Source: Pseudomonadaceae bacterium SI-3 (GTDB lineage: Bacteria; Pseudomonadota; Gammaproteobacteria; Pseudomonadales; Pseudomonadaceae). Taken from it: a stretch of 64,000 bases of DNA. Shown one piece after another: positions 1,663-39,206 of this stretch. Numbering within the stretch: the stretch's first letter is position 1; the number at the start of each line of letters is the position of its first letter. Below the pieces are notes generated by a model that was given only the letters and a program-made list of their open reading frames with translations, did not search any database and had not been told where the DNA came from. The position numbers were made by a program, and so were the translations under genes. Where the stretch lies: assembly GCA_004010935.1 (NCBI GenBank), contig CP026511.1, forward strand, positions 186,001-250,000, written 5' to 3'.

Positions 1663-3759
1663 TTAACCCAGCGTGCCGAGAATGTTCACCCCGACCCGAT
1701 CCGGAATTTCGTTCTGCGACAGCACGTGCAGGCCAGGGCTGAACACCCGCGCGTAGCGTGACAGCAACGGACGCAGCTGCGGCATCACGGTAAGGATCGG
1801 CGGGTGGCCGTCCTTGCGCAGCTTCTCCTTCACCACGGGCATGCTGTTCTGCAGTTGGTTGAGCAGGCTCGGCTCCACCGGAATGTTGTCCAGGCTCACC
1901 TGACCGGCTTGCTGGGCGATCGCCAGCGCATTGAGCAGGGTGTTTTCCAGTGCATTTTCCAGCACGAACACCGCCAGTTCGCGGCGATCACCAGCAATCA
2001 TCGAAACGATGCTGCGGCGCAATGCGTAGCGTACGTCCGCCGCCAGCAGCACCGGGTCCTTGGTGGTTTCGCTGCATTCGAGCAGGGTGCTGGCGATGGT
2101 TTCGATATCGCGCAGCGGCACTTCCTCCAGCAGCAGCTGGCGATAGACGCGCATCTGTTGCGTATAGCTCAGCGCATTCTTCAGGCTTTCTGCCAGCTTC
2201 GGCGCCTGCAGCGTCAAGCGCTGCATCAGGTGCTCGACGTCGTCGTGCTTGAACAGGTCCGGCAGGTGTTCACGGACCACCTTGTTCAGGTGCGTAGCGA
2301 CCACGCTGGCGCAATCGATGACCTGATAGCCAAGGTTCAGCGCGCGGGATTTGTCCGACGGCTGAATCCAAACCACCTGCATGCGATAGGCCGGGTCGGT
2401 GCCGAGGATGCCGTCGATTTCGCCGTAGAGTTCCGGCGACGGAATCGCCATCAGGCGATCGGCGTGCAGTTCGGCGCCGTCGATCTTCTCGCCGTTGATG
2501 TAGATGTCATATTGCGACGCCTTGAGCCGCAAGCTGTCGCGGATCTGCACTTCTGGCAGCAAAAAGCCCAGGTGTTCGGAAAGGGTCTGGCGCACGCCGC
2601 GTACCCGCGCTGGCAACGGCGCCCCGGAGGCTTCGTTGACCAGCCCGACCAGCTTATAGCCCAGCGAAATCGACAGCCGCTCGACCAGCGGAATGTCTTC
2701 CCAGGCCAGCGATTGGGCCTTTTCCTTGTCCATCGCCTGGCCGATGGCCTGGATTTCCTTCAGATCGGCACCGGCGGCTGGCGGCTCGTGCAGCGACACA
2801 CGCCAGCCGATGAAGCCGATCAGCGCGGCAAAGCCGATGAACGCCAGGTGCGGCATGCCCGGCACCAGGCCGAGCACGAACAGGATGCCGGCCACCGTGT
2901 ACAGCGACGCTGGATTGGCCAGCAGCTGGCGCTGAACCTGGCTGGTGATGTCGCTGGATTCGTTGATGCGGGTGACGATGATCGCCGCCGCGGTGGACAA
3001 CAGCAGCGCCGGAATCTGCGCGACCAGGCCGTCACCGATGGTCAGCAGGGCGTACTGCCTGAAGGCTTCGCCCGCGGCCAATTCATGAACGAAAACACCG
3101 ATGGCGAAGCCGCCGAACAGGTTGATCAGCAGGATCAGAATGCCGGCGATGGCGTCACCGCGAACGAACTTCGAGGCGCCGTCCATTGCACCGTAGAAGT
3201 CGGCTTCCTTGGCTACTTCCTGGCGCCGGGCCTTGGCTTCTTCGTTGGTCAGCAGACCCGCGTTGAGGTCGGCGTCGATGGCCATCTGCTTGCCCGGCAG
3301 GGCGTCCAGGGTGAAGCGCGCAGTCACTTCCGAGATCCGCTCGCCGCCCTTGGTGATGACAATGAAGTTGATGATCATCAGGATGATGAACACCACCAGA
3401 CCGACGATGAAGTTGCCGCCGATGACGACCTCACCGAAGGCTTCGATCACCTTGCCCGCGGCGCCTGTGCCGGTATGACCTTCGAGCAGCACCACCCGCG
3501 TCGAGGCGACGTTGAGCGTCAGGCGCATCAGCGTGGTGATCAGGATCACCGTCGGGAACAGCGAGAAATCCAGCGGACTTTTCGACGACACGCTGACCAG
3601 CAACACCAGAATCGACATGGCGATGTTGAAGGTGAACAGCACGTCCAGCAGCTGCGGTGGCAGCGGCAGGATGATCATCGCCAGGATCGACAGGATGATC
3701 AGCGGGATCCCAATCCGTCCGCTGCTGAAGGTCGGCGTCAGTTTCTGAATCAAATTCAT
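1663..3759 (-). CDS. flhA: Flagellar export gate protein FlhA (lateral system)
   Basis: FlhA forms the nonameric export gate of the flagellar type III secretion apparatus and docks export chaperones. The 698 aa match the family's usual length. The N-terminal third holds about eight hydrophobic membrane segments (residues 15-320), with the FHIPEP-family signature around residues 140-175 (GGERISEVTARF, then LDALPGKQMAIDADLNAG). The cytoplasmic ring domain follows from about residue 350. It is the last gene of the minus-strand block fliMNPQR-flhBA and overlaps flhB by 4 bp (ATGA). No strong terminator is visible downstream, only REP palindromes. The flagellar genes around it distinguish it from injectisome SctV proteins. 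Confidence 0.97.
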   Translation of the reverse strand: MNLIQKLTPTFSSGRIGIPLIILSILAMIILPLPPQLLDVLFTFNIAMSILVLLVSVSSKSPLDFSLFPTVILITTLMRLTLNVASTRVVLLEGHTGTGAAGKVIEAFGEVVIGGNFIVGLVVFIILMIINFIVITKGGERISEVTARFTLDALPGKQMAIDADLNAGLLTNEEAKARRQEVAKEADFYGAMDGASKFVRGDAIAGILILLINLFGGFAIGVFVHELAAGEAFRQYALLTIGDGLVAQIPALLLSTAAAIIVTRINESSDITSQVQRQLLANPASLYTVAGILFVLGLVPGMPHLAFIGFAALIGFIGWRVSLHEPPAAGADLKEIQAIGQAMDKEKAQSLAWEDIPLVERLSISLGYKLVGLVNEASGAPLPARVRGVRQTLSEHLGFLLPEVQIRDSLRLKASQYDIYINGEKIDGAELHADRLMAIPSPELYGEIDGILGTDPAYRMQVVWIQPSDKSRALNLGYQVIDCASVVATHLNKVVREHLPDLFKHDDVEHLMQRLTLQAPKLAESLKNALSYTQQMRVYRQLLLEEVPLRDIETIASTLLECSETTKDPVLLAADVRYALRRSIVSMIAGDRRELAVFVLENALENTLLNALAIAQQAGQVSLDNIPVEPSLLNQLQNSMPVVKEKLRKDGHPPILTVMPQLRPLLSRYARVFSPGLHVLSQNEIPDRVGVNILGTLG

Positions 3760-4895
3760 GATCGGGCTCGGTTGAACAGTTCTTCGGGAATATGGATGTC
3801 ACTCGCCAGCTTGGGCTTGGCCCGGCGACCCTGCTTCCAGGCCTTGAGCTGGAGGATGTAGGTCAGCACATGGGCCACCGCGGTGTAGAGCGGCGCCGGG
3901 ATCTGCTGGTTGACCTGGGTACTGAAGTAGATCGCCCGTGCCAGTGGTGGCAGCTCGACCACCTCCAGGTTGTTGGCCTGGGCCAGCTTGCGGATGTACA
4001 ACGCCGTTTCATCGACACCACGGGCGATGACGAAAGGTGTTTCGGCCTTCTTCGGGTCGTACTTGAGCGCCACGGCGTAATGCGTCGGGTTGACGATCAC
4101 CACGTCGGCGTCCTTGATCACTCGGCTGATCTGCCGTTGGGCCAGCTGGCGCTGCAGCTGCTTGATCCGCGCCTTTACCTCGGGCCGGCCTTCCTGGTTC
4201 TTGTGCTCTTCCTTGCGCTCCTGCTTGGTCATGCGCATCTTTTTCAGAAAGAAGAAGCGCTGCAGCGGGATGTCGATGAACGAGAACAGCACGAATACCA
4301 GCAGCAGCGAAATCGCCAGATCGAAGGTCAGCGAGAACGCGCTGCTGATGGCATTGGTGATGTCGCTGCGCTGCAAGGCGATCAGCTTGGGCGCGGCGTA
4401 ATACAGCTGGCCGACGGCGATGCCCAGCAGGGTGGCGATCTTCAGCAGCGACTTGAGCAGTTCGGTCCAGTTCTGCGCGCCCACCATCCGGCCCAGGCCG
4501 GTAATGGGGTTGAGTTTGCTGAACTGGGGGGAGAAATTCTTCGAGGCGAACACCCAGCCGCCCGGCACCAGGGCGAAGGCGATGACCAAGATCGGCGTGA
4601 CCAGCAACGGCAGCAGCACGCTGATGAACACCAGCAGGTTGTGGGTGAGGATCAGCTGCAGATCATCGACGGTGATTTCGCTCTTGTGAAAGTCGATGTA
4701 CGAGTAACTGAACGCCTGCTGCAGACCGTCGAAAAAAAAGCCCAGGCTGAATTTGAGCACCAGCAGCGTGGCCAGCAGCGAGACGGTGGTGGCGACGTCC
4801 TTGGAGCGGGTGACCTGGCCATCGTCGCGACTCTTCTTGAGTTTCTGCTCGGAGGCCTCTTCGGTTTTTTCCTGGCTGCTGTTCTGCTCAGACAT
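3756..4895 (-). CDS. flhB: Flagellar export switch protein FlhB
   Basis: FlhB switches export specificity from rod/hook to filament substrates. The 379 aa show four membrane segments in the N-terminal half and a soluble C-terminal domain with the autocleavage site NPTHYAVAL (Asn269-Pro270). The N-terminus has the typical charged family start ending in KKSRDDGQVTRSKD. It overlaps fliR upstream by 8 bp and flhA downstream by 4 bp, implying translational coupling. The C-terminal tail is short, without the proline-rich extension of some FlhB proteins. Confidence 0.97.
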   Translation of the reverse strand: MSEQNSSQEKTEEASEQKLKKSRDDGQVTRSKDVATTVSLLATLLVLKFSLGFFFDGLQQAFSYSYIDFHKSEITVDDLQLILTHNLLVFISVLLPLLVTPILVIAFALVPGGWVFASKNFSPQFSKLNPITGLGRMVGAQNWTELLKSLLKIATLLGIAVGQLYYAAPKLIALQRSDITNAISSAFSLTFDLAISLLLVFVLFSFIDIPLQRFFFLKKMRMTKQERKEEHKNQEGRPEVKARIKQLQRQLAQRQISRVIKDADVVIVNPTHYAVALKYDPKKAETPFVIARGVDETALYIRKLAQANNLEVVELPPLARAIYFSTQVNQQIPAPLYTAVAHVLTYILQLKAWKQGRRAKPKLASDIHIPEELFNRARS

Positions 4896-5685
4896 CGCGG
4901 CCGCTCCGCAAGATCTCGCCGATGTTGCCCAGCAGCTCGCGCGTCAGGTGCAGGTAGGCTTCCGACAGGTTTGGCAGGGTCAGGAAAATCAGGATCAGTC
5001 CGGCGATGATCGCCATGGGAAAGCCCAGAGAGAACAGGTTCATCGCTGGCGAGATTCGGTTGAGCAGGCCAAAGCAGAACTGCACCAGCGTCATGCAGAA
5101 GACGATGGGTAGCGCGATCAGCAGGGCGGCGGAAATGACCCAGCTCAGCGACATCGCGATGGTCTGCAGGCCGTCGAAATGGATGCCGCTGCCGATCGGC
5201 CAGAAGATGAAGCTCTGATAGATGATGGTGACGATCACCAGGTGGCCGTCAGTGGCGAAGAACAGCAGCGCCAGCAGGATGAAATACAGCTGATAAACGA
5301 TCGAGGCCGACGACACACCGTTCATGGGGTCGTTGAACACCGCCATGGACAGCCCCAGCTGGGTCGAGACGATGTCGCCGATCAGGGTGAATACCGTGAA
5401 CACCAACATCAGCGCCACGCCCAGCAGCAAACCCATGGCGATTTGCTCCAGCGCGGTGAGAATGCCCTTCATGGACAGCGGGTCGATGGGCGCTGTGGGC
5501 GGCAGGGCGGCGGTGAGCACCACCGTCAGGGCAATCGCCAGCAGCACCCGTGCGCGGATGCTCAGCGACTTGTGGCTGAACATCGGCGCCAGGCTGAACA
5601 CCGCCATGATCCGGCAGAACGGCCACCAGTAGCCCAGCAAGGATTGCAGGTATTGACCGACCTGCATGATGGGTTCGTTGCCCAT
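4888..5685 (-). CDS. fliR: Flagellar export protein FliR
   Basis: FliR is an inner-membrane component of the FliPQR export core. I start it at the ATG giving MGNEPIMQVGQYLQ, two bases after the fliQ stop; a second ATG six codons in (5667) is also possible. The frame is open much further upstream, but that part crosses fliQ and the repeat region and is not FliR-like. The product of about 265 aa has five to six membrane segments and typical motifs such as RVLLAIALT, QLGLSMAVFNDP and LNRISPAMNLFSLGFP. It overlaps flhB by 8 bp. Confidence 0.95.
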   Translation of the reverse strand: MGNEPIMQVGQYLQSLLGYWWPFCRIMAVFSLAPMFSHKSLSIRARVLLAIALTVVLTAALPPTAPIDPLSMKGILTALEQIAMGLLLGVALMLVFTVFTLIGDIVSTQLGLSMAVFNDPMNGVSSASIVYQLYFILLALLFFATDGHLVIVTIIYQSFIFWPIGSGIHFDGLQTIAMSLSWVISAALLIALPIVFCMTLVQFCFGLLNRISPAMNLFSLGFPMAIIAGLILIFLTLPNLSEAYLHLTRELLGNIGEILRSGRDV

Positions 5686-5687
5686 GG

Positions 5688-5960
5688 CTAACCGACCAGC
5701 CGCCCGGCTTGGGTGAAGGTTTCGATGAACAGGTCGCTGAAGGTGCGCAGGATCCAATGCCCGGCGAACACCAGCATGCCGAGGGTGATCAGCAGGCGCG
5801 GCAGAAAGCTGAGCATCTGTTCGTTGATCTGAGTGGCGGCCTGGAAAATGCTCACCAGCAGCCCGCCGAGGAGGCTCGGCACCACCAATACGCAGACCAC
5901 CAGTACGATGACGTGGATGGCGTTGGAGATGATGTTGACGGCGGTGTCGGGGGTCAGCAT
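5688..5960 (-). CDS. fliQ: Flagellar export protein FliQ
   Basis: FliQ is a small two-helix membrane subunit of the export gate. The 90 aa are the expected length, with two hydrophobic hairpin helices (about 17-40 and 52-70) and the family-typical FQAATQINEQ loop between them. It should be co-translated with fliR. Its upstream neighbour fliP, normally adjacent, is 955 bp away behind a block of intergenic repeats, so fliQ-fliR-flhB-flhA may depend on read-through or on a promoter in that block. Confidence 0.96.
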   Translation of the reverse strand: MLTPDTAVNIISNAIHVIVLVVCVLVVPSLLGGLLVSIFQAATQINEQMLSFLPRLLITLGMLVFAGHWILRTFSDLFIETFTQAGRLVG

Positions 5961-6915
5961 GGGAGCACCTGGGAGGTGATACAGCCGCTACAGGTCGCGG
6001 CGAGCCGGTAGTGGCTTTGGCCTCGAGTGTAATGGCTCTTTGTTGTGGTTGGCTGAGGCAGTGGTTTCGCCCTGCTGGGCGAGTCCCTTTTGGCAGTTGC
6101 CGGATGGCCGGCCCCGCCCAAAGGAACAAAAAGGTCTTGCCCCTGCACCGGACTAGGCGTCCCCGGTTCGCTGCGCTCGACTTCCCTCGCTCCGGTGACG
6201 TTCCAGGGGCCCGCGGCGACGGGCCATCCATGCCGATGGCGGCCCCGACCCAACGCCGCTCTCGCGGCATCCATGCCGCTCAATCCCTTCCACGCCACCT
6301 GCGCTCGGCCTTCTGAAAGGGGCGATTCGATGGCGTCTGATGGCCTGTGCAACGAAGCGGAAGTAGGACCTAAACGTAGGGTGGGTAACGCGAAGCTTAC
6401 CCACCGGTTTTCGGAAAGGTTGGGCGCTGACGATTCCAGTGCCAGTTTCGGTGGAAAATGCTCCGCAGTTTTCCACCCTACGAACTTTTGACGGTCATTG
6501 ATTAAGTGATCCTGGCTCGACACGGCTTTCTGCTTTTCCATTGCACGACCTCCCAGACGACGCCGAACGCCCCTTTCAGGAGGCCGAATGGAATCCGCGC
6601 GGAGGGGAGCGAGCGGCATGGATGCCGCGAGAGGCGTAAAGGGCCAGGGATGGCCCTTGTACGCCGGCCCCCGGAGCGCGGATGGAATGAGGGAAGTCGA
6701 GCGAAGCGAGACCCGGATGTAGGGGCAAGCGTTTTTGGTTACTTTTTCGGCGTTTGGAAAAAGTGACTCGCCCAGCAGGGCGAAACCTGAGACTAGGGCC
6801 ACCAGTAGAGCGGCGCCTTCGTTAGCAGGTTGCGCCAACGCTGCCGGATCGCGAGCAAGCTCGCTACGAAAAGCGATAACGGCAGTGAAGGGGCGATGAG
6901 TCATCTCAACGCCCC
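5961..6915. repeat. 955-bp repeat block splitting fliP from fliQ
   Basis: No gene is supported here. The block has two diverged arms in inverted orientation, about 6055-6330 and 6565-6795. Each arm begins at its outer end with TTCGCCCTGCTGGGCGAGTC and shares further tracts: CTTGCCCCT, CTCGACTTCCCTC, GGCATCCATGCCGCTC and CTGAAAGGGGCG. Between them lies a smaller element (6376-6481). A REP-like palindrome sits at 6847-6867, next to the fliP stop. Such segments recur between genes of pseudomonad genomes, but finding one inside a fliPQR operon is odd because these genes are normally contiguous. Confidence 0.8.
6376..6481. repeat. 106-bp double-hairpin element with GTAGGGTGG ends
   Basis: The element begins GTAGGGTGG and ends CCACCCTAC, a 9-bp terminal inverted repeat. 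It contains two hairpins: GGTGGGTAA...TTACCCACC at the left, and GGTGGAAAA...TTTTCCACC at the right. The form resembles a miniature non-autonomous element widespread in gammaproteobacteria. It sits in the centre of the larger inverted-repeat block between fliQ and fliP. Confidence 0.7.
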
Positions 6916-7671
6916 CTAAAACGGCTGAATACTGGTGGTCAGCGTACCCATCAACAACGCCCACCCATCCACCAACACAAACACCATCAGCTTGAATGGC
7001 AACGAGATCATCATCGGCGACAGCATCATCATGCCCATCGCCATCAGCACGCTGGCGACAACAAGGTCGATTACCAGAAACGGCACGAAGATCATGAAGC
7101 CGAGCTGAAAGGCCGTCTTCAGCTCGCTGAGCACGAACGCCGGCAACAGCAGGGAGAAGTCCAGATCATCGAGATTCTCCGGCACTTCTTCGCCGGCCAG
7201 CGACACCATGGTTTCCAGCGAGGTCTTGTTGGTCTGCGCCAGCATGAACGCCGAGAGGCTGGTTTTGGACACGTCGAGCGCCTGCTCCAGGCTGATATCG
7301 TCGTTCTGGAAGGGCTCGAAGGCGGCGCTGTGGATTTCCTGCCAGACCGGGCGCATCACCAGCAGGGTGACGATCAGTGCAATGCCGATCAGCACCTGGT
7401 TCGGCGGGCTCTGTTGCAGGCCGATGGCCTGGCGCAGGATGGCCAGCACGATGATGAAGCGGGTGAAGCAGGTCATCATCATCAGCATCGCCGGCAGAAA
7501 GCCGAGCAGCGTCATGATGATCAAGATCTGCAGCTTGATGCTGAATTCCTGGCCGTTCTCGGTATCGTTCAGGTTGAACAACGTGATCTCGCCACCGGCA
7601 GCCTGCGCCACCAGCGGGAACAGGCCGGCCAGCAGCAGACACAGCAGCGACAGCCCGTGGCGCAGCTTCAT
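6916..7671 (-). CDS. fliP: Flagellar export protein FliP
   Basis: FliP is the pore-forming ring subunit of the export gate. The start is the ATG overlapping the fliN stop by 4 bp (ATGA), giving 251 aa with a cleavable signal peptide (MKLRHGLSLLCLLLAGLFPLVAQA), a FliP hallmark. Family motifs are clear: LGFLPAMLMMMTCFTRFIIVLAILRQA in the first membrane pair, LLPAFVLSELKTAFQLGF, and the C-terminal SLPFKLMVFVLVDGW. No fliO lies between fliN and fliP, where many polar systems have one. Confidence 0.96.
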   Translation of the reverse strand: MKLRHGLSLLCLLLAGLFPLVAQAAGGEITLFNLNDTENGQEFSIKLQILIIMTLLGFLPAMLMMMTCFTRFIIVLAILRQAIGLQQSPPNQVLIGIALIVTLLVMRPVWQEIHSAAFEPFQNDDISLEQALDVSKTSLSAFMLAQTNKTSLETMVSLAGEEVPENLDDLDFSLLLPAFVLSELKTAFQLGFMIFVPFLVIDLVVASVLMAMGMMMLSPMMISLPFKLMVFVLVDGWALLMGTLTTSIQPF

Positions 7672-8039
7672 TGCGTCAGCGCATCCAGGCCGACGCCGGA
7701 CAGTTCGACGATACGCAGGCCGTAGCTGCCGTTCATCACCACCACTTCGGCCTTGGCGAACAGGGTGCCGTTGACCTTCACGTCCAGCGGCTCGCCGGCC
7801 ACCTTGTCGAGCACGATGACGCTGCTGGTGTCGCACTCCATCAGTTCTTTCAGCGAAATCTCTGCCGAGGCCACTTCCAGGGTGACGTTCACTGGGATCT
7901 TGCCGAAGAAGCTCAGGTCCTGGCGTGGTGCCTGGGGCTGGGGAGCGGGCGCGGCGGCTGGCTCGTCGGTGCCGTCGAGGCTCAGGTCGCCCTCGTTGAT
8001 GAGGTTCTCGAATTCGTTGTCGGACAGTTGACCGGTCAT
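7668..8039 (-). CDS. fliN: Flagellar C-ring protein FliN
   Basis: FliN builds the lower part of the rotor/switch complex with FliM and FliG. The SpoA/surface-presentation domain occupies about residues 45-118 (FGKIPVNVTLEVASAEISL, then VIVLDKVAGEPLDVKVNG and SYGLRIVEL). The 123 aa are normal for the family. The N-terminus, MTGQLSDNEFENLINEG, is unusual because it looks like the motif by which FliM proteins bind CheY (LSQ-EIDALL), which this cluster's FliM lacks. It overlaps both fliM and fliP by 4 bp. Confidence 0.95.
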   Translation of the reverse strand: MTGQLSDNEFENLINEGDLSLDGTDEPAAAPAPQPQAPRQDLSFFGKIPVNVTLEVASAEISLKELMECDTSSVIVLDKVAGEPLDVKVNGTLFAKAEVVVMNGSYGLRIVELSGVGLDALTQ

Positions 8040-8875
8040 TGGGATTTCACGCTTTCAAGTGAAGTGAGGAACAAGGCGCCGTCTTCTTCGAAGACAGTCC
8101 CCCGATAGAGCTTCTGCTGGTTGATGCGCACTTCGTAGCGGTCCAGCGGGCGCACCATGAGAATGTCGTTGAGCTGCAGGGCAAGCACCTGCGACAGCGG
8201 CATCTGCACCGAGGCGACCACGCAATCCAGGCGTACCGGCAGGTGCTTGATGTGATCGACCGGATTGCCGGTCAGCCGAGCAGGCAACGGGCCGGCCAGG
8301 CGACTGGTCAGGTCATCGACCAGATCGGTGTCCAAATGAATAAAAATCGATGAGCGGCTATTGGTCAGGTGGCTGATGTATTCGAACTCAGCGACATATT
8401 CCCAGGTGGTTTCTTCGTAATCGTTTTCGTAGCGCTCAAGTGCGCCGAATGTGTCGCCGGATAATATAGAGCGCGCAAAAATATAAGTCAGATCCAAGCC
8501 CAGGCGATCACGCATCCGTTGTTCGGAAGTGCTGATCGGCGGTGCTTCCTGACTGGGCACGATTGTTCCGCCGTAATAGCACTCGAGTGCCTCGGTGAGC
8601 AGGGCCCGGTCAATTGAAAAACCAACTTTTCCCATTGGCGAACGGTAGATGCATTCTGGTGCGTTATCTGCCGGTTCCTGAACATCGACCTTGCTCAGCT
8701 CGAGGCTGATCCGGTAATTGCGCAAGAAGTAGTCGCCGATCAAACGAGGGTTCTTGTTGGTGGTTTCCTTGATGAACTGAGGAATCTTGTGGTGATGCCG
8801 GCCAAGCTTCTGCGGTTTCAATACAGTCAGGCTTTGGGCGGGCACGCCATGGTGGACTTTTGAATTGCCAGACAT
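8036..8875 (-). CDS. fliM: Flagellar switch protein FliM (lateral type, no CheY-binding N-terminus)
   Basis: FliM is the middle layer of the C-ring. I start it at the ATG giving MSGNSKVHHG, about 279 aa; the frame is open 31 codons further upstream. The middle domain (about 45-200) and C-terminal SpoA domain (about 205-275, QMPLSQVLALQLNDILMVRPLDRYEV) are recognisable. Polar FliM proteins begin with an LSQ-EIDALL motif for CheY-P; here the N-terminus is basic and histidine-rich with no such motif. Some secondary flagellar systems, such as that of Shewanella putrefaciens CN-32, are reported to have a FliM of this kind that does not respond to CheY. It is first in the minus-strand operon and divergent from lafK. 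Confidence 0.92.
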   Translation of the reverse strand: MSGNSKVHHGVPAQSLTVLKPQKLGRHHHKIPQFIKETTNKNPRLIGDYFLRNYRISLELSKVDVQEPADNAPECIYRSPMGKVGFSIDRALLTEALECYYGGTIVPSQEAPPISTSEQRMRDRLGLDLTYIFARSILSGDTFGALERYENDYEETTWEYVAEFEYISHLTNSRSSIFIHLDTDLVDDLTSRLAGPLPARLTGNPVDHIKHLPVRLDCVVASVQMPLSQVLALQLNDILMVRPLDRYEVRINQQKLYRGTVFEEDGALFLTSLESVKSQ

Positions 8876-27511: not shown

Positions 27512-27590
27512 GGTGATCATCCTTCGTGCGTTGGGCTGTTAGGAGCTGGCTTGACTGCCTGCTGAAAAGGTAAGGCGACAGCACCAAGCG

Positions 27591-28593: not shown

Positions 28594-28626
28594 GAAAATC
28601 AATGGATTACCCATATCTGTAGGTTC

Positions 28627-28640: not shown

Positions 28641-28703
28641 AAAAAGTAACAGCAAAGCGGTGGGCTGGGTTCAGCCTGCACAGGCTGCAAAGGGTATCGG
28701 CAA

Positions 28704-31431: not shown

Positions 31432-32160
31432 ATGGATCGTTTGGGATACACGGCGATGACCGCTGCGAGCCGCACGATGATGTCGCTGCAGGTGCGCTCC
31501 AACAACCTCGCCAACGTCAACACACCGGGCTTTCGCGCCGACCTCGAGCGCGCTCAGGCCGTCGCCGTGGAAGGCTACGGCTATGACAGCCGCCACATGG
31601 CGGTGGTCGAGAACAACGGTGTCAGCCTGGCCGCCGGCCCGATGGTCGCCACCGGTCGCGAGCTGGATTTCGCCGTCAAGGGCACCGGCCTGATCGTCCT
31701 GCAGGACGGCGAAGGCGAGGCCTATACGCGCCAGGGCAGCATGCAGATCGATGCCGAAGGTCGCCTGACGCTCAATGGCCGCGCGGTCATGGGCGAGGGC
31801 GGGCCGATCGAGCTGCCCGAGCATGAGCGGGTTGAGATTGGCAATGACGGCACCGTGTCGATCATGGCGCCGGGCGACTGGATGATGGCCGAGGTCGACC
31901 GCATCCGCCTGGTCGACGTGCCGGCTGCGGACCTGATGAAGAACGAGGCCGGCTTGCTGGTCACGCGCAACGGCGAGCCCGCCGCGCCCAGCGAAGACGT
32001 GCGCCTGGCCAGTGGTTTCCTCGAGTCGAGCAACGTCTCGGCCATCGACGAGCTGGCCTCGACCATGAGCCTCAACCGCCTGTTCGAGACTCAGGTAAAG
32101 ATGATGAAAGCCGCCGAGGACCTCTCCGACGCCGGCAACCGAATGATCCGCGGCAGCTGA
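31432..32160 (+). CDS. flgF: Flagellar proximal rod protein FlgF
   Basis: FlgF is a rod subunit between FlgC and FlgG. The 242 aa have the rod-family N-terminus (MTAASRTMMSLQVRSNNLANVNTPGFRADLERAQ), DFAVKGTGLIVLQDGEGEAYTR, and the C-terminal SGFLESSNVSAIDELASTMSL. It is followed by flgG after 14 bp. Confidence 0.95.
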   Translation: MDRLGYTAMTAASRTMMSLQVRSNNLANVNTPGFRADLERAQAVAVEGYGYDSRHMAVVENNGVSLAAGPMVATGRELDFAVKGTGLIVLQDGEGEAYTRQGSMQIDAEGRLTLNGRAVMGEGGPIELPEHERVEIGNDGTVSIMAPGDWMMAEVDRIRLVDVPAADLMKNEAGLLVTRNGEPAAPSEDVRLASGFLESSNVSAIDELASTMSLNRLFETQVKMMKAAEDLSDAGNRMIRGS

Positions 32161-32174: not shown

Positions 32175-32960
32175 ATGAATTCCGCACTTTGGGTCAGCAA
32201 GACCGGCCTGGCTGCACAAGACACCGCCATGGCGACCGTCGCCAACAACCTGGCCAACGTCAACACCAACGGCTTCAAGGCCGACCGCGCGGTCTTCGAG
32301 GATCTGTTCTACAGCATCGAGAAGCAGCCCGGCGCCCAAGCGGATGAGATCAACACCGTGCCGTCCGGCATTCAGCTGGGCAGCGGCGTGCGCGTCGCCG
32401 GCACGCAGAAGGTGTTCACCGAAGGCAGCATCCAGACCACCGGTCAGCCGATGGACCTGGCGATCGTCGGTCGTGGCTTCTTCCAGGTCGAGTCGCCCAA
32501 CGGCGACATCCTCTACACCGAGAACGGCCAGTTCCAGCTCAACGCCGAAGGCGTGATGGTCAATGCCCAGGGCTTGCCGCTGACGCCTGCCATCGAAGTG
32601 CCGCAGGGCAGCACCGGCTTTACCGTGGGCGCCGATGGCATCGTTACGGCCGTTCTGCCCGGTGACACACTGCCGTCCGAGCTGGGCCAGATCACCCTGG
32701 TCAACTTCACCAATCCGGGTGGCCTGGAAGCACTGGGCGGCAACCTCTATCGCGAAAGTGTCGCCAGCGGCGAAGCGGTGGAAGGCGTGCCGGGCGAGGA
32801 GGGCCTCGGCCAGCTCAAGCAGGGCGTGCTCGAAGGCTCCAACGTGCAGGTGGTCGAGGCCATGGTAGCGATGATCGCCATCCAGCGCGCCTACGAGGCC
32901 AACGCCAAGGTCCTCGATGCCGCCAGCGGCATGCAGCAGTTCCTCAACCAGACCGTCTGA
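32175..32960 (+). CDS. flgG: Flagellar distal rod protein FlgG
   Basis: FlgG forms the distal rod. The 261 aa are the canonical length, with LWVSKTGLAAQDTAMATVANNLANVNTNGFKADR at the N-terminus, GSIQTTGQPMDLAIVGRGFFQVE, and the C-terminal LEGSNVQVVEAMVAMIAIQRAYEANAKVLDAASG. A ribosome-binding site (GGGAGA) precedes the ATG. Confidence 0.97.
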   Translation: MNSALWVSKTGLAAQDTAMATVANNLANVNTNGFKADRAVFEDLFYSIEKQPGAQADEINTVPSGIQLGSGVRVAGTQKVFTEGSIQTTGQPMDLAIVGRGFFQVESPNGDILYTENGQFQLNAEGVMVNAQGLPLTPAIEVPQGSTGFTVGADGIVTAVLPGDTLPSELGQITLVNFTNPGGLEALGGNLYRESVASGEAVEGVPGEEGLGQLKQGVLEGSNVQVVEAMVAMIAIQRAYEANAKVLDAASGMQQFLNQTV

Positions 32961-32965: not shown

Positions 32966-33631
32966 ATGATGCGTACGCCCATTCTGCTCGTCGCTCTGGC
33001 CTTGCTCGGCGGCTGCGCCAGCTTCAACGAAATGCTGCCGGAAGAGCCCTCCACCGAGTACGAACCGCTGGAGTTGGACTACAGCCTGCCGCCGACCACC
33101 GGTGGCGGCCTGTTCCGCTCCGGTTACAGCGGCTCGCTGATCAGCGACAGGCGCGCGGTGCGGGTCGGCGACATCCTCACGGTGGTGCTGGACGAGTCCA
33201 CGCAGTCGAGCAAGAGCGCCGGTACCAGTTTCGGCAAGGAATCGAGCGTAGGCATCGGCGTGCCGACCATTCTCGGCAAGACCTACCCGGACGTTGAAAC
33301 CTCAGCCTCCGGCGAACGCGAGTTCAAGGGCTCGGCCAAGAGCTCGCAGCAGAACACCCTGCGCGGCTCCATTGCCGTCAGCGTGCACCGCGTGCTGCCC
33401 AACGGCACCTTGCTGATCAAGGGTGAGAAGGCCCTGCGGCTGAATCAGGGCGACGAATACATCCGCCTGACCGGCCTGGTGCGTATCGACGACATCAACC
33501 GCTACAACCAGGTGTCCTCGCAAAGCGTGGCCAACGCCAAGATTTCCTACGCCGGGCGCGGCGTGCTCAACGACAGCAACTCGGCCGGCTGGCTGACGCG
33601 GTTCTTCGCGTCGCCGCTGTTCCCCCTTTAA
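32966..33631 (+). CDS. flgH: Flagellar L-ring lipoprotein FlgH
   Basis: FlgH forms the outer-membrane L-ring. The 221 aa begin with a lipoprotein signal peptide and lipobox (LALLGGCAS, Cys17). Family motifs include GGLFRSGYSGSLISDRRAVRVGDILTVVLDEST, VSVHRVLPNGTLLIKGEKALRLNQGDEYIRLTGLVR and the C-terminal WLTRFFASPLFPL. The presence of L- and P-ring genes fits a Gram-negative envelope. Confidence 0.97.
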   Translation: MMRTPILLVALALLGGCASFNEMLPEEPSTEYEPLELDYSLPPTTGGGLFRSGYSGSLISDRRAVRVGDILTVVLDESTQSSKSAGTSFGKESSVGIGVPTILGKTYPDVETSASGEREFKGSAKSSQQNTLRGSIAVSVHRVLPNGTLLIKGEKALRLNQGDEYIRLTGLVRIDDINRYNQVSSQSVANAKISYAGRGVLNDSNSAGWLTRFFASPLFPL

Positions 33632-33647: not shown

Positions 33648-34757
33648 ATGACTAGCCTCATGCGACCACTCAAGCTGTTCCTCGCCGCCGTCGCGCTGTG
33701 GCAACTGCCGGCCCAGGCCGTGCCGTTGATGGACCTGGTGGATGTCGAGGGCATCCGTGGCAACCAGCTGATCGGCTACGGCCTAGTTGTGGGCCTCGAC
33801 GGTACCGGCGACAAGAATCAGGTCAAATTCACCAGCCAGTCGGTGACGAACATGATCAAGCAGTTCGGCGTGAACCTGCCGCCGAACGTCGACCCGAAGC
33901 TGAAGAACGTCGCCGCGGTGACCATCACCGCGACGGTGCCGCCGTCCTACAGCGCCGGCCAGACGGTGGATGTCACCGTCTCCTCGCTGGGCGACGCCAA
34001 GAGCCTGCGCGGCGGCCAACTGCTGATGACCCCGCTGCAGGGCGTCGACGGTGAGATCTATGCCCTGGCTCAGGGCGCGGTGATCGTTGGCGGCGTCAGC
34101 GCCGAAGGTGCAGACGGCTCCAAGGTTTCCATCAACACCTCCAACAGCGGCCTGATCCCCAACGGTGCGACGGTCGAGCGGATGATTCCCAGCGACTTCA
34201 CCGAACGCCCGGAAGTGATGCTTAACGTGCGCCAGCCGAGCTTCCAGACCGTCACCCGTGTGGTCGACGCGGTGGATGCCTATTTCGGCAAAGGCACCGC
34301 CACGGCGCTCAACGCCACCAAGGTGTCGATCCGTGCGCCCCTTACCAGCACTCAGCGCATGAGCTTCATGGCCATGCTCGAACGCCTGGAAGTCGAAGAG
34401 GGCCGCACCCGGCCGAAAGTGGTGTTCAACAGCCGCACCGGCACTGTCGTGGTCGGTCAGGGTGTGCGGGTCAAAGCCGCGGCGGTGGCCCACGGCAGCC
34501 TGACCGTGACGATCAGCGAGAATCCCCAGGTCAGCCAGCCAAACGCATTCGCGGACGGCGAAACCGTGGTCACGCCGCAGTCGGACGTCACCATCGAGCA
34601 GGACCGCAAGGCGATGTTCAAGTGGCCCGAAGGCGCCAGCCTGGAAAGCATCATCAGCACCATCAACAGTCTTGGCGCCACACCCGACGACGTGATGAGC
34701 ATCCTGCAGTCGCTGGAACGTGCCGGCGCCCTGAACGCTGAATTGATCGTGATGTAA
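33648..34757 (+). CDS. flgI: Flagellar P-ring protein FlgI
   Basis: FlgI forms the periplasmic P-ring, assembled with FlgA. The 369 aa carry a signal peptide (LKLFLAAVALWQLPAQA) and strongly conserved segments: LVDVEGIRGNQLIGYGLVVGLDGTGDK, SLGDAKSLRGGQLLMTPLQG, and RTGTVVVGQGVRVKAAAVAHGSLTV. The length matches the family. Confidence 0.97.
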   Translation: MTSLMRPLKLFLAAVALWQLPAQAVPLMDLVDVEGIRGNQLIGYGLVVGLDGTGDKNQVKFTSQSVTNMIKQFGVNLPPNVDPKLKNVAAVTITATVPPSYSAGQTVDVTVSSLGDAKSLRGGQLLMTPLQGVDGEIYALAQGAVIVGGVSAEGADGSKVSINTSNSGLIPNGATVERMIPSDFTERPEVMLNVRQPSFQTVTRVVDAVDAYFGKGTATALNATKVSIRAPLTSTQRMSFMAMLERLEVEEGRTRPKVVFNSRTGTVVVGQGVRVKAAAVAHGSLTVTISENPQVSQPNAFADGETVVTPQSDVTIEQDRKAMFKWPEGASLESIISTINSLGATPDDVMSILQSLERAGALNAELIVM

Positions 34758-34818: not shown

Positions 34819-35844
34819 ATGAGCATCGTATCCCTCCCCCAGCACCTCAACACCCTGCGCAACCGCCAGGACGGCCCGACCGCGGCCCGGCGCCAGCAGC
34901 TGGAAGTCGTTGCCGAACAGTTCGAGGCGATGTTCCTGCAGCAGATCCTCAAGCAGATGCGCAAGGCCGGCGACGTGCTCGGTGCCGGCAACCCGATGCG
35001 CAGCCGCGAGCTGGATACCATGCGCGACTTCTATGACGAAGTGCTCGCCGACACCCTGGCCGGCAAGCGCCAGACGGGGATCGCCGACATGCTGGTTCAG
35101 CAGCTAAGTGGTGAAGCCGGCAGCGCGCCCGCGCCGACAGCCCTGGCCGGTCACGCTGGCAGCGGTTTGCAGGGTGGCGGCTTGCATGCGCTGCGTGGCA
35201 CCTGGCAGCGAGGCGTCGATGCGCTGGACAGTGCTTGGGAAAGCGGCAAGGCCGGCTTCAAGTCGCTGGTCGACAGCGTCATCAAGCATGAGTCCAGTGG
35301 CAACATCGCCGCCGTCTCGCCGAAGGGCGCGCGTGGCCTGATGCAGTTGATGCCGGGTACGGCGCGGGACATGGCGGCCGAGCTGGGTTTGCCGTTCAGT
35401 GAAGCGCGGCTGACCACCGATGCGGAATACAACAAGCGCCTCGGCAGTGCCTACCTGAACAAGATGCTCGACCGCTACGACGGCCATCAGGCGCTGGCGC
35501 TGGCCGCCTATAACGCCGGCCCCGGCCGGGTAGACGAGTGGCTGAAGAGCCACGGTGACCCCCGCAAGGGCGAGATCGGCACCGGCGCCTGGGTGCAGAA
35601 GATCCCTTTTGCGGAGACCCGCAACTACACCCGCAACATCCTCAACGATCTGAGCGCCGCCGCGCCTCGGCAGGCCGAACCGCGTGCGCAGCTGCAAGCC
35701 GTTCCGCCTGTTGTGCCGTCGCCGCTTAATTCCGCTGGCGATTCGGTCGCTCTTTCTACTGGGCACAGTGTTGTTGCTGGCGCCCGCCTCTCGGTGGCGT
35801 TCGCGCAACCGATCCGGATCGAGCCGAAGGAAGTCGTGTCGTGA
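34819..35844 (+). CDS. flgJ: FlgJ rod cap fused to a lytic transglycosylase domain
   Basis: FlgJ caps the rod and opens the peptidoglycan. The N-terminal rod-binding domain is present (residues 25-95: VAEQFEAMFLQQILKQMRKAG; ELDTMRDFYDEVLADTLAG). The C-terminal half is not the GH73 glucosaminidase domain of enteric and Pseudomonas polar FlgJ but a GH23/SLT lytic transglycosylase (about 148-290), with catalytic Glu158 in IKHESSGN, then GARGLMQLMPGTA and LALAAYNAGPGRVDEW. A Pro/Ala-rich tail of about 50 residues follows. It overlaps flgK by 4 bp (GTGA). Confidence 0.93.
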   Translation: MSIVSLPQHLNTLRNRQDGPTAARRQQLEVVAEQFEAMFLQQILKQMRKAGDVLGAGNPMRSRELDTMRDFYDEVLADTLAGKRQTGIADMLVQQLSGEAGSAPAPTALAGHAGSGLQGGGLHALRGTWQRGVDALDSAWESGKAGFKSLVDSVIKHESSGNIAAVSPKGARGLMQLMPGTARDMAAELGLPFSEARLTTDAEYNKRLGSAYLNKMLDRYDGHQALALAAYNAGPGRVDEWLKSHGDPRKGEIGTGAWVQKIPFAETRNYTRNILNDLSAAAPRQAEPRAQLQAVPPVVPSPLNSAGDSVALSTGHSVVAGARLSVAFAQPIRIEPKEVVS

Positions 35845-37208
35845 GTATTCTTGGTCAAATTGGCTACAGCGGCGTTCGCGCCTCGCAGATCGCCCTCTCG
35901 GCGACCGGGCAGAACATCGCCAACGTCAACACGCCGGGCTTCAGCCGTCTGACGCCAGACATGAAGTCGGTGGGCGGGCAGACCTCGGTCAGCATCGGTG
36001 GTGGCGTACAGGTCAGCAGCATCCGGCGTCTGTCCAACGACTTCCAGAATCAGCAGCTCTGGCGCGCCAGCACCGACGAGAACTACTTCAACACCAGCCA
36101 GCAATACCTCACCGCCCTCGAAGGCCTGATCGATAGCGAAGGCTCGAGCGTCAGCGTTGGCCTGGACAACTTCTTCGCCGCCCTCAGCGAAGCCAGTTCG
36201 ACCCCCGAATCCATCGCCCTGCGCCAGCAGATCATCGGCGAGTCGAAGCAGTTGGCGCAGCGCTTCAACGGGCTGAACAGCAACATCGGCACCCAGCTCA
36301 ACGCCCTGCAGGGCCAGCGCGTGGCCATGACCAGCGAAATCAACGGGCTGTCCGGCAACATCGCCGAGTTGAACGCACAGATCCGCGAGATGGAATCCTC
36401 GGGCCGTGATACCGCGACCCTGCGCGATTACCGCGACAACCTGGTCAAGGACCTTAGCCAATACGCCGGCATCCGCGTGCAGGAAGCCGCTGATGGCACT
36501 CTGAATGTCTCGCTGGCCAACGGTCAGCCGCTGGTTGCCGGTGCGACGGCGGGCCAGTTGAAGGTCAACGCCAACCTCGCCGGCGAGCAGGAGATGACGC
36601 TGGTGTTCGCCAAGACCACCTTCCCGCTCAACCAGCAGGGCATCGGCGGCTCGCTCGGCGGTCTCTACGACATGGAGTACGGCGCGCTGCGCCCGGCCCA
36701 GCAGGATTTGCACGACATGGCCTCGGCCGTGGCGACCATGGTCAACGACGCCCTCGCCGGTGGCTTCGACCTCAACGGCAACCCGGGCCAGCCGCTGTTC
36801 AGCTACAACGCGGGCAGCACCAGCGGGATGCTGGCGGTCAACGCGTTGGGCGCTTCGGAACTGGCGTTTTCCGGCACCGCAGGCGAGGTGGGTAACAACA
36901 AGACCCTGCTCACCATGCTTGAACTCAAATCAGCGGGTGTCACGGTCGCCGGCAACACCGTACCGCTCAACGACGCCTACGCCGGCCTGGTTGGCCGCGT
37001 TGCCAGTGCCAGCCGGCAGAACCAGGCGGATCTGCGCGCCGCGACCACGGTAGCCGAGCAGGCTCAGGCGCAGCGCGACAGCGTCAGTGCGGTCAACCTG
37101 GACGAGGAGGCCGTCAATCTCATGGCCTACGAGCAGGCCTACCAAGCCAACATGAAAGTCATCAGCACATCCAACGATCTGTTCAACGCCGTACTGGCGA
37201 TGTTCTGA
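35841..37208 (+). CDS. flgK: Hook-filament junction protein FlgK
   Basis: FlgK is the first hook-associated protein. The 455 aa start at GTG overlapping the flgJ stop. The N-terminus SILGQIGYSGVRASQIALSATGQNIANVNTPGFSR and the C-terminus VNLDEEAVNLMAYEQAYQANMKVISTSNDLFNAVLAMF are diagnostic. It is shorter than many polar FlgK proteins (about 550-680 aa), consistent with a compact lateral filament. Confidence 0.96.
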   Translation: MSILGQIGYSGVRASQIALSATGQNIANVNTPGFSRLTPDMKSVGGQTSVSIGGGVQVSSIRRLSNDFQNQQLWRASTDENYFNTSQQYLTALEGLIDSEGSSVSVGLDNFFAALSEASSTPESIALRQQIIGESKQLAQRFNGLNSNIGTQLNALQGQRVAMTSEINGLSGNIAELNAQIREMESSGRDTATLRDYRDNLVKDLSQYAGIRVQEAADGTLNVSLANGQPLVAGATAGQLKVNANLAGEQEMTLVFAKTTFPLNQQGIGGSLGGLYDMEYGALRPAQQDLHDMASAVATMVNDALAGGFDLNGNPGQPLFSYNAGSTSGMLAVNALGASELAFSGTAGEVGNNKTLLTMLELKSAGVTVAGNTVPLNDAYAGLVGRVASASRQNQADLRAATTVAEQAQAQRDSVSAVNLDEEAVNLMAYEQAYQANMKVISTSNDLFNAVLAMF

Positions 37209-37245
37209 GCTGGCGCAAGCCAACTTGACTGACGAGAAAGACACC

Positions 37246-38160
37246 ATGCGCATCTCCAACGCCCAAATCACCGCCATGATGCACGGCTCGATGAACACCA
37301 GCTCCGAGAAGCTCGGCAAGCTGATGCAGCAGATGGCCACCGGCGAGCGCATGCTGATGCCCTCGGATGACCCGATCTCCGCCGTGCGCGTGCTGCGCAT
37401 CCAGCGCGAGGAAGCGACGCTGACCCAGTACCGCACCAACATCGCCAACGTGTCCGGCAACCTGTCCAAGCAAGAAGCCAACCTCAAGGCGACGTCGGAC
37501 ACCATGCTCAACGTGCGCGACCTGCTGCTGTGGGCCGCCAACGGCAGCAACACCAGCGAAGACCTGGCCGCCATCGCCAATGAGATGGGCAATCTGGAAC
37601 GCACCATCGTCAGCTTCGCCAACGTGCGTGACGAGGAAGGCCGTTATCTGTTCTCAGGCACCCTCAGCGACCGGCCGGCCATTACCTTCGATGCCGCCAC
37701 CCAGAGCTACCAGCTGACCGGCAACGATCAATACCGCCAGGCGGCAGTCGCCAATGGCGTACTGGTCGAGGAGAATGTCACCGCCGCGCAGGTCTTCGGT
37801 GGCGGCGTCGGCATGCTCAACGACCTCAACGCGCTGGTCAAAATGCTCGCCGACCCGGCACTGAATGCCAACGATCCGGCAGTACAGGCTTCGATCAGCG
37901 CTACGCTCAACAGCCTCGACAAGACTCACGGCGACTTGCTCGGTGCGGTCTCGGAGTTGGGCGGGCGGCAGAACACCCTGACGTTGCTGTCGAGCAGCAA
38001 CGAGGATGTTTCGCTGGTGAACCAGAAAATCGACGGCGAGCTGTCGCAACTCGACTACGCCTCGGCCAGCATCGACCTGAACAACTATCAGCTGTCGCTG
38101 CAGGCGACGCAGAAAACCTATTTGAAGATCAACGGGCTGTCGCTGTTCGGCATGCTCTGA
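37246..38160 (+). CDS. flgL: Hook-filament junction protein FlgL
   Basis: FlgL is the second junction protein, related to flagellin. I choose the ATG with GAGAAAG upstream, giving MRISNAQITAMMHGSMNTSS (304 aa); a TTG at 37225 would add seven residues. N-terminal helices (LMQQMATGERMLMPSDDPISAVRVLRI) and the C-terminal LSQLDYASASIDLNNYQLSLQATQKTYLKINGLSLFGML match the family. Confidence 0.95.
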   Translation: MRISNAQITAMMHGSMNTSSEKLGKLMQQMATGERMLMPSDDPISAVRVLRIQREEATLTQYRTNIANVSGNLSKQEANLKATSDTMLNVRDLLLWAANGSNTSEDLAAIANEMGNLERTIVSFANVRDEEGRYLFSGTLSDRPAITFDAATQSYQLTGNDQYRQAAVANGVLVEENVTAAQVFGGGVGMLNDLNALVKMLADPALNANDPAVQASISATLNSLDKTHGDLLGAVSELGGRQNTLTLLSSSNEDVSLVNQKIDGELSQLDYASASIDLNNYQLSLQATQKTYLKINGLSLFGML

Positions 38161-38174: not shown

Positions 38175-39206
38175 ATGAAGATTGGCAAGCAGCTCCCCGC
38201 TGTTTCCGCAATCAACCCACAGGAACGCCGCGAGGCGCTGCTGCGGGATGCGCCTGCGCCGCTGCGGGCCGGTACGCCGGTTGACACGCCGCACACCGAG
38301 ACGGCCCCCAGCAAGAACACCAGCTTCAGCCTGCAGCTCAATCAGCAACTGTCCTCGATGCAGTCGGCCGACAGCTACCTGGGCGATCTGCAGACGCGCC
38401 TGTCGCAGCTCAAGCTGAACCTCAGTCGCCAGATCAGCTCGCCGCAGCCCAACGGCGAGGAAAGCATTCGCCAGACCGTGCAGCAGGTTGGCGAGTTGCT
38501 CAAAGAACGCAGCAAACGCTCCGGCAACTCCCTGGATGCCAATCTCAAACTGCGACTGACCGAACCGGTGCGCAGCCGCTTCAGCCTGCAAGGGCTGGAG
38601 TCGCTGGAAAAGATTCGCCAGTCAGGCCGCGAGACATTGCTGTTCAGCGGCGGTCGCCAACTGGCCGAGCCGGTGGCCGTAGTGCTCGACGACGAGATGA
38701 GCGACGAGCAAATCCTGCGCCGCTTCAATGGCAGCCTGGGCCAGGCCGGTATCCGCGCCGAACTGGATCAGAACGGCGAGCTGAAGTTTTCCGCTCGCGA
38801 AGGCGACTGGCAAAAGCTCAAGGACCAGCTGGCGGTGCAGGGCGAAGGCAAGCTGTTCGACAAAGGCCGATACGTTCGTGTGCAGAGCGAGGACGAGCAA
38901 CTGCTGAGCTTCCCCGAAGAGCTGCAGCTCGACTCCTTCCGTGAACTGCGCCGTCTGCTCGACTCGGTCGTCGCAGGGCTCGACAAGGTCACCTCGCTGC
39001 GCGAGCAGCTGAGCAACCGCCAGCAGGAAATTCGCGAGTTCCTTGCCCGTCAGGCTCATGCCGATGAGAAGCAGTGGGCGATGGACTTCTCCCGCTCGGT
39101 GTTCAACCTGATGCAGCGCAGCCCCTCCAGCTACGCGGCGGTCACCCAGACGGTGGTGGCCCAGGCGACCATCAGCCGCTTCGCGGTGGTCAGTCTGCTC
39201 TCCTGA
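38175..39206 (+). CDS. Flagellar cluster protein, LafW-like
   Basis: A 343-aa protein directly after flgL, so probably in the flgB operon and flagellar. It has no signal peptide or membrane segment. The N-terminal 60 residues are Pro/Thr-rich, as in export signals, followed by helical stretches (about 50-130 and 285-320; VTSLREQLSNRQQEIREFLARQ) and a C-terminal VTQTVVAQATISRFAVVSLLS that looks like an assembly helix. Vibrio lateral clusters contain LafW, a putative hook-associated protein in a comparable role; that correspondence is from position and character, not from a motif. Function unknown. Confidence 0.7.
   Translation: MKIGKQLPAVSAINPQERREALLRDAPAPLRAGTPVDTPHTETAPSKNTSFSLQLNQQLSSMQSADSYLGDLQTRLSQLKLNLSRQISSPQPNGEESIRQTVQQVGELLKERSKRSGNSLDANLKLRLTEPVRSRFSLQGLESLEKIRQSGRETLLFSGGRQLAEPVAVVLDDEMSDEQILRRFNGSLGQAGIRAELDQNGELKFSAREGDWQKLKDQLAVQGEGKLFDKGRYVRVQSEDEQLLSFPEELQLDSFRELRRLLDSVVAGLDKVTSLREQLSNRQQEIREFLARQAHADEKQWAMDFSRSVFNLMQRSPSSYAAVTQTVVAQATISRFAVVSLLS

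Follow-up and report, generated by a model that had tools for sequence, protein, structure and literature searches.

The window analysed here, a stretch of 64,000 bases from Pseudomonadaceae bacterium SI-3 (bases 186,001–250,000 of its closed one-contig genome of 4,838,607 bases, CP026511.1), contains at positions 1663–39206 a complete lateral (Flag-2/Laf) flagellar gene cluster of ca. 38 kilobases (kb), as revealed gene by gene by NCBIfam and Pfam scans. This single locus encodes a full basal body and export gate along with hook, cap and flagellin, and also holds its own LafK, LafZ, LafW, sigma-28 factor, FlgM and MotAB; LafW and LafZ were assigned on the basis of weak similarity (24% and 32%, respectively) plus position. 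The lateral FliM proteins closest to that of the window come from organisms named as Stutzerimonas, Pseudomonas stutzeri or near relatives, and FliM of the same-genus genome G031 has exactly the contig coordinates of locus L034 from the named S. stutzeri 4C29, so that the host is, judged by its relatives, a member of Stutzerimonas (Pseudomonas stutzeri group). We regard it as highly probable that the cluster is a complete lateral system maintained by selection in a Stutzerimonas strain which also possesses a FleQ-type polar flagellum. The system is of a known kind, not rare, and widespread in its group. A first-pass annotation made from the letters of the window had already placed a lateral cluster at these coordinates, equipped with its own sigma-54 activator, sigma-28 factor, FlgM, stator and ToxR-like regulator; the coordinates are correct, nearly every expected part has a family match, and the regulators and the stator were recovered by the family scans.

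Lateral kinship of FlhA and the polar system of the same genome

The phylogenetic tree of FlhA, named beforehand as one of the tests of the lateral reading, places the cluster outside the polar proteins and leaves that reading unrefuted. Among its 121 rows, 65 lateral and 56 polar ones are parted by one branch with a support of 100; the row labels were assigned by best similarity, and it is this single well-supported branch, not the labels, that constitutes the test. The tree was built by a quick method, with support from the Shimodaira-Hasegawa-like approximate likelihood ratio test (SH-aLRT), after ten or so duplicate or overlapping rows had been removed. All 16 Stutzerimonas-type rows form one group, again with a support of 100. 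FlhA of the window is 63% identical to E. coli Flag-2 FlhA and 51% identical to the polar FlhA of its own genome, while E. coli Flag-2 FlhA shares 49% with polar FlhA; the E. coli protein is the sole reference Flag-2 row in the tree, and the program flags its long branch, which meets the polar side. A search with the lateral FlhA in 229 genomes of the class found, outside the strain's own cluster, no full-length match above 51% and only fragments of up to 66%. This search contributed polar rows to the tree and no named Vibrio or Aeromonas protein. Closeness to the Vibrio and Aeromonas lateral systems is judged from gene content and from the LafA model, and the likeness to the Laf systems of Vibrio, Aeromonas and Plesiomonas consists in the match of the window's LafA to the NCBI lateral flagellin model.

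The polar apparatus, which the first-pass annotation had only presumed, exists; the other test named beforehand, a search for a second flagellar set, thus did not refute the lateral reading either. A second FlhA is encoded at 3,160,011–3,162,071 on the same contig, accompanied by an FlhF-type GTPase, a FleN/FlhG-type ATPase, CheA, CheB, a MotA-family protein, a FliM with both FliM domains, homologs of fliE, fliF, fliG, fliH, fliI and fliA, and a FliO-like open reading frame (ORF) named by sequence and position only. The genes at 3,132,825–3,137,024 we take to be those of FleQ and FleR, because of how their sequences start and because they resemble LafK; the gene between the two is assigned to FleS by position only. 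Polar FlgI, FlgJ, FlgK and FlgL are encoded near 3,045–3,051 kb, the polar hook gene lies near 3,053 kb, and polar fliC-flaG-fliD near 1,989–1,992 kb. The polar genes are dispersed over at least four chromosomal places (1,989 kb; 3,045–3,055 kb; 3,132–3,137 kb; 3,149–3,179 kb), while the lateral cluster is compact. The two systems are unlike not only in FlhA but also in the absence of FlhF, FlhG and che among the scanned ORFs of the cluster.

The E. coli Flag-2 locus (lfh/lfi/lfg/laf) has the same gene complement, including LafK, LafZ, LafW and LafA (all but FliT were matched by tblastn), the same fliM-fliN-fliP order and, like the window, a sigma-54 site before flgB. No scanned ORF of the cluster was named fliO, flhF, flhG or che, although no search was aimed at those families, and the fliN and fliP ORFs overlap, leaving no space for fliO between them. 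The first-pass annotation had noted these missing genes and a block order unlike that of Vibrio, with flgMN after fliJ and with fliDSTKL-fliA-motAB apart from lafZ-lafA. The absence stands for the scanned ORFs but is not unusual, because the E. coli 042 Flag-2 gene list, in the available text of PMC7526173, likewise has no fliO, flhF, flhG or che and also places flgMN after fliJ (N before M); the absence therefore belongs to the kind, and this position of flgMN is equally normal for Flag-2. What does differ from E. coli is the placement of the fliDSTKLA-motAB block, which here precedes lafZ-lafA-flgA and in E. coli follows lafA; fliD to motB likewise precede lafZ-lafA-flgA in two other genomes of the genus, G006 and G002. 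Further differences are a FliM identity of only 26% and a transglycosylase domain in FlgJ, which E. coli FlgJ lacks.

Polar FliM of the strain begins MAVQDLLSQDEIDALL, contains LSQDEIDALL and matches PF02154; its N-terminus carries the CheY-docking motif. A pattern scan, in which polar FliM matched as positive control, found this motif in none of the 68 lateral FliM loci described below, and E. coli Flag-2 FliM, read by eye, is likewise without it. Lateral FliM also has no match to the FliM middle-domain model, which polar FliM matches at 250 bits. Over 27 genomes, the mean FliM identity to the window's protein is 86% for the lateral and 96% for the polar type; lateral FliM evolves faster. The missing motif suggests that the lateral motor probably does not switch under chemotaxis. 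Both the missing CheY dock and the fast-evolving lateral FliM agree with the account of Ferreira et al. 2021 (PMC8042155), whose available text describes the lateral motors of gamma-proteobacteria as non-chemotactic and their FliM and FliG as long-branched, the C-ring being indistinct in Plesiomonas.

FlgJ of the cluster (34819–35844, plus strand) is fused to a lytic transglycosylase, with a rod-binding domain (PF10135) at residues 45–95 and an SLT domain (PF01464) at residues 144–249, in which a motif scan found the ES(158)-GLMQ-AYNAG motifs retained; this transglycosylase motif is described in the available portion of PMC8517470. In the polar FlgJ of this strain, a glucosaminidase domain takes the place of SLT, and E. 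coli Flag-2 FlgJ as annotated comprises 99 residues with the rod-binding domain only. The best 120 of 7,309 database matches all have both domains; the remaining matches likely include plain transglycosylases. In the 16 named lateral genomes examined, FlgJ aligns through the SLT domain in 14, the other two (Serpens gallinarum and P. flexibilis) having a short FlgJ which aligns over the first 118–119 residues only. The portion of PMC8517470 at hand describes dual-domain FlgJ as carrying a glucosaminidase, with transglycosylases as separate partner proteins, and no paper on a FlgJ-SLT fusion appeared among the matches listed in our literature search of titles and abstract starts. On balance, we slightly favour the view that pseudomonad lateral flagella constitute a distinct Flag-2 branch whose rod cap has a lytic transglycosylase of its own, with the result that two chemically different wall-piercing enzymes would be at work in one cell (transglycosylase lateral, glucosaminidase polar), and that within Stutzerimonas the 38 kb machine is ancestral, strongly selected where kept, and repeatedly cut out from one spot.

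Genes of the cluster and their surroundings

The ORF tool used here begins at the first possible start codon, and several ORFs are accordingly overlong, so that true starts are given per gene; some family scores (FliG, FliL, FlgD, MotB and others) remain under the model cut-off. On the minus strand, a flhA-flhB-fliR-fliQ-fliP-fliN-fliM operon encodes export gate and C-ring. Lateral flhA (1663–3759) scores 772.0 bits with TIGR01398 at a cut-off of 772.1 and is placed by the FlhA tree; it is followed by flhB (3756–4895; TIGR00328, above cut-off), an ORF with fliR (4888–6270; TIGR01400, above cut-off; FliR domain at residues 214–450, true start near 5,680), fliQ (5688–5960; PF01313), an ORF with fliP (6916–7836; TIGR01103 and PF00813; domain at residues 107–302, true start near 7,670), fliN (7668–8039; PF01052) and lateral-type fliM (8036–8875), which keeps the FliMN_C domain and shows neither a PF02154 match nor a CheY-docking N-terminus.

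Between fliP and fliQ lies a 956-base non-coding insert (5961–6916, minus strand) with nested inverted arms, which is repeated elsewhere in the genome (28 matches including its own copy and the inverted arms; the longest other copy comprises 728 bases at 850 kb). The element looks like a non-autonomous mobile repeat. The spacing of fliP and fliR amounts to 1,134–1,769 bases in 12 of the 15 named Stutzerimonas-type loci with both genes placed and to 341–346 bases in the other three; outside the genus it is 326–392 bases, except in loci L050 (552) and L052 (884). The short loci L017 and L021 yield false spacings, because the overlong fliR ORF includes the repeated element, and FliR matches in genome G040 were rejected as being that same element. 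Within 1062–1789, a tandem duplication involves the 3′ end of flhA together with the REP-like repeats (repetitive extragenic palindromic sequences) behind it, bases 1173–1382 (210 bases) repeating 1580–1789 at 95% identity and a distance of ca. 407 bases.

Next, on the plus strand, come lafK, fliEFGHIJ, flgM, flgN and the fliD to motB block. The sigma-54 activator gene lafK (9249–10697, the ORF probably beginning upstream of the true start) is recognized by PF00158 and HTH_8 and by 51% identity over 215 residues to the E. coli Flag-2 locus. Matches above cut-off identify fliE (10726–11046; TIGR00205), fliF (11067–12746; TIGR00206), fliH (13792–14490; NF009925) and the export ATPase gene fliI (14492–15823; NF005535). 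The fliG gene (12718–13785) scores 184 bits with TIGR00207, under the cut-off, and is 53% identical to E. coli Flag-2 FliG, while fliJ is found under the cut-off of TIGR02473 at residues 119–252 of an ORF (15475–16245) whose true start lies near 15,815. They are followed by flgM, the anti-sigma-28 gene (16419–16694; PF04316), and flgN (16691–17131; PF05130). The cap gene fliD (lafB, 17717–19087) matches NCBIfam FliD models under their cut-offs and is 35% identical to E. coli Flag-2 FliD; fliS (lafC, 19084–19482) scores above the cut-off of TIGR00208, and a FliT-like ORF (19466–19789) in the lafD position, named by position only, is present in two relatives. This ORF and the last one of the cluster (38175–39206) are the two without a family match. 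The block continues with fliK (lafE, 19786–20964; PF02120), fliL (lafF, 21001–21462; NF005435 weak, 26% to E. coli Flag-2 FliL, E 2e-14), the sigma-28 gene fliA (lafS, 21473–22252; TIGR02479, above cut-off), an ORF with motA (lafT, 22346–23350, true start near 22,478; TIGR03818, above cut-off) and an ORF with motB (lafU, 23194–24261, true start near 23,347), whose best NCBIfam match is the LafU model at 276 bits with a cut-off of 383.

The last part consists of lafZ, lafA and flgA on the minus strand and of flgB to flgL and lafW on the plus strand. The winged-helix (ToxR/CadC-type) regulator gene lafZ (25375–26349) is assigned by PF00486 and by 32% identity over 167 residues to an E. coli winged-helix gene, its membrane segment being read by eye; the lateral flagellin gene lafA (26600–27520) matches NF038071 with 374 bits, above the cut-off of 365, and flgA (TIGR03170, above cut-off) resides in an ORF at 27799–28788 with a true start probably below 28,704. 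On the plus strand, models above cut-off identify flgB (28704–29069; TIGR01396), flgC (29073–29501; TIGR01395), the hook gene flgE (30235–31422; NF005286), flgF (31432–32160; TIGR02490), flgG (32175–32960; TIGR02488), flgH (32966–33631; NF009072), flgI (33648–34757; NF003676), flgK (35841–37208; TIGR02492) and flgL (37225–38160; TIGR02550), and flgD (29501–30184; NF007198) falls under its cut-off. The final ORF (plus strand) represents lafW, a putative hook-filament protein gene with 24% identity over 307 residues to E. coli LafW (E 2e-13). The cluster is flanked by a dienelactone hydrolase gene (308–1003) and a lactonase gene (39233–40411); farther away, a selenocysteine transfer RNA gene adjoins selB and selA (57050–60500, minus strand).

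Concerning lafA in other hosts, residues 4–40 and 277–306 of LafA match ca. 2.1 kb apart and in different open frames (755 and 809 residues) in Pseudomonas thermotolerans (L058; G070:C13:27321-29593), whose lateral flagellin is either very large or broken. Two neighbouring lafA copies occur in Parazoarcus communis (L097; G067:C187:275052-276909) and in P. fluorescens PS910 (L095; G065:C1:520756-526430).

Selection, spread and loss

The ratios of nonsynonymous to synonymous substitution rates (dN/dS), calculated for seven genes in pairwise comparisons with at most five close relatives and with exclusion of gap-containing pairs, range from 0.011 to 0.099 in 28 of 29 pairs, one FlhB pair reaching 0.27; the seven genes are under strong purifying selection. 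Genomes G006 and G002, read end to end, have the gene order of the window, and most genes align nearly full length; FliK aligns partially, and fliJ and fliN were dropped by the overlap filter or the score limit but are visible in G052. A profile search of named genomes with a FliM alignment yielded 68 loci, mostly in Pseudomonas sensu lato. Their hosts include Stutzerimonas, Pseudomonas mendocina, alcaliphila, citronellolis, nitroreducens, straminea, flexibilis, otitidis and others, as well as Serpens, Cellvibrio mixtus, one gammaproteobacterial metagenome-assembled genome and the betaproteobacterium Parazoarcus communis; Vibrio and Aeromonas are not among the 68 loci obtained with this alignment of pseudomonad FliM.

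Within the genus, lateral FliM is present in 28 of 56 genomes, the own strain included (27 of 54 of good quality), and polar FliM in all 56. The lactonase is found 28.7–31.3 kb from lateral fliM in 21 of the 28 carriers, again including the own strain, and at 6 kb in two (G014 and G002, the latter at the flhA end); it lies on a separate contig in two carriers and has no match in three. The 28 genomes without lateral FliM are heterogeneous. Three (G045, G042, G026) have the two flanking genes 26–31 bases apart, the hydrolase of G026 matching in two pieces. Three others retain remnants: G053 has flhA and the 3′ two thirds of flhB joined directly to the 3′ three quarters of flgJ, followed by flgK, flgL and lafW, G039 has scraps of flgK and flgL, and G003 has lafW and part of flgL. 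In seventeen, the lactonase is present and the 4.6–9.3 kb read beside it contain no flagellar match (limits of E 1e-3 in one remnant search and 1e-6 in the other), and four (G007, G009, G024, G044) show no lactonase match. The last one, G022, is undecided; it was counted as a non-carrier but is 71% complete with a contig end within lafW, and is probably a carrier. A sigma-54 activator fragment near the lactonase of G051 was not accepted as a remnant, because it is located beyond the lactonase as seen from the site. By the window's layout, the remnant of G053 would correspond to one deletion of ca. 30 kb, and this loss is probably recent because polar FliM of G053 is 100% identical (rounded) to that of the host. 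Since three non-carriers retain deletion remnants at the same site, the patchiness within the genus is at least partly due to loss. Lateral and polar FliM identities to the own strain run parallel over 27 genomes (Spearman 0.85, the points not being independent in related genomes). On account of the remnants, the FlhA tree and this parallel divergence, the best reading is an inheritance largely by descent within the genus with more than one deletion. For Enterobacterales, the available text of PMC7526173 cites earlier work according to which Flag-2 was once widespread and deletions later removed it on a large scale.

An alternative is a recently acquired genomic island, i.e. a 38 kb block inserted from elsewhere, with the non-carriers representing the original state. 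The closely adjacent flanking genes in G045, G042 and G026 would fit such an insertion, as would the related systems in Parazoarcus communis (75% FlhA identity) and in Cellvibrio, and some transfer of lateral systems between lineages has probably occurred; moreover, the left flanking gene itself has a patchy distribution, with matches of at least 66% identity in 19 of the 56 genomes. However, three other non-carriers have their flagellar remnants at the same site, the guanine-plus-cytosine content of the cluster (62.1%) is close to that of the right flank (63.1%; means of 18 and 12 2-kb windows, respectively), and the lactonase holds its distance to fliM in most carriers. The single group of Stutzerimonas-type FlhA rows and a lateral divergence which tracks the polar one also argue for descent, so that we consider a recent island unlikely. 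As a decaying relic, the cluster would produce no flagellum in this strain or serve protein export only. Absence is indeed frequent in the genus, some of it by loss, and in the window the non-coding repeat parts fliP from fliQ with the duplicated flhA 3′ end alongside, but none of flagellin, cap, hook and stator is missing, most genes align nearly full length with the two relatives, and dN/dS remains below 0.1 in all pairs but one, which makes decay quite improbable.

A copy of the polar Pseudomonas genes, or an FlhDC-type second system as in P. fluorescens F113, deserves hardly any credence. Both would be second flagellar sets in pseudomonads, and the F113 flagellum likewise accompanies a FleQ-type one (PMC5031763, available text). 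The FlhA tree refutes this reading, since the cluster lies outside the polar rows, and the cluster has a sigma-54 activator, with no ORF named FlhD or FlhC in the general NCBIfam and Pfam scans. According to the portion of the F113 report at hand, from whose description alone that system was compared, the F113 flagellum is a polar tuft under an FlhDC regulator with closest homologs in Azotobacter, and its island occurs in F113 and six other strains, i.e. seven of 2,535.

The proposal of a complete and selected lateral system under sigma-54 and sigma-28 control is partly supported by a promoter scan. A sigma-54 type promoter site precedes flgB at 28626–28641 (plus strand), and in nine of the ten distinct upstream sequences, that of the window among them, the best site lies 52–78 bases ahead of flgB. 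The mean best score is 9.0 of 11 (10 sequences), compared with 5.2 in shuffles which preserved single-base content only; E. coli Flag-2 reaches 11 and the window 9 of 11. Several observations weigh against the proposal. The flgB upstream of G002, one of the ten, has no sigma-54 site at the usual place, and no fliM or lafK upstream reached 10 of 11 for sigma-54 (lafK mean 6.3 versus 4.5). Sigma-28 consensus scans before lafA, motA, fliD and flgM gave means near those of the shuffles (lafA 8.05 versus 7.87 of 12); scores of at least 10 of 12 occurred in 10% of lafA and 14% of lafK upstreams versus 1–2% of shuffles, and given means near the shuffles with only this small excess, the sigma-28 sites were not used. 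Half of the genus lives without the lateral system. The ca. 950-bp non-coding repeat between fliP and fliQ might cut the operon in two. Finally, FliM appears to have lost its CheY dock, and chemotaxis genes can, by analogy, matter for swarming, as the cheW mutant of V. parahaemolyticus swarms 80% less (PMC5090175, available text).

Proposed working and biological meaning

Based on gene content, we propose a scenario for the operation of the lateral system: LafK together with sigma-54 would turn on the basal-body and hook genes. Upon completion of the hook, FlgM would exit and the cluster's own FliA would drive lafA and motAB, while LafZ might relay a signal from the envelope or the surface to lafA. 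With its fused transglycosylase, the rod cap would open its own hole in the cell wall. Without FlhF and FlhG of their own, the motors would be placed along the cell side, and without the CheY dock they would rotate without chemotactic switching. The outcome would be additional side flagella on surfaces, for swarming; such a surface-swarming role, which the first-pass annotation had also put forward, is inferred from the gene set.

A 2025 paper on S. stutzeri MJL19 (PMC12125118) contains, in its available text, one sentence stating that the sequence indicates "two flagellar systems", and no more detailed account of a pseudomonad system of the LafK type was found among the matches listed in our search of the open-access literature, subscription papers being outside its scope. 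A review of Pseudomonas flagella (PMC8036289) describes, as far as its text is available, pseudomonads as polar apart from F113; unlike in this polar-only account, several genera of pseudomonads have lateral systems.

The two FlgJ types in one cell represent a domain swap in the rod cap which is open to a simple biochemical test. Side flagella in the P. stutzeri group were reported by electron microscopy decades ago, and the cluster is the likely genetic basis for them. At one and the same position, the genus has genomes that carry the cluster, genomes with an empty site and genomes with a half-deleted locus; it shows the loss of a large machine in progress and is well suited to studying what a second flagellum costs and what it brings to its host. 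If the cluster is indeed ancestral and repeatedly deleted, the genus would provide a natural series for the question of when a swarming motor repays its cost.

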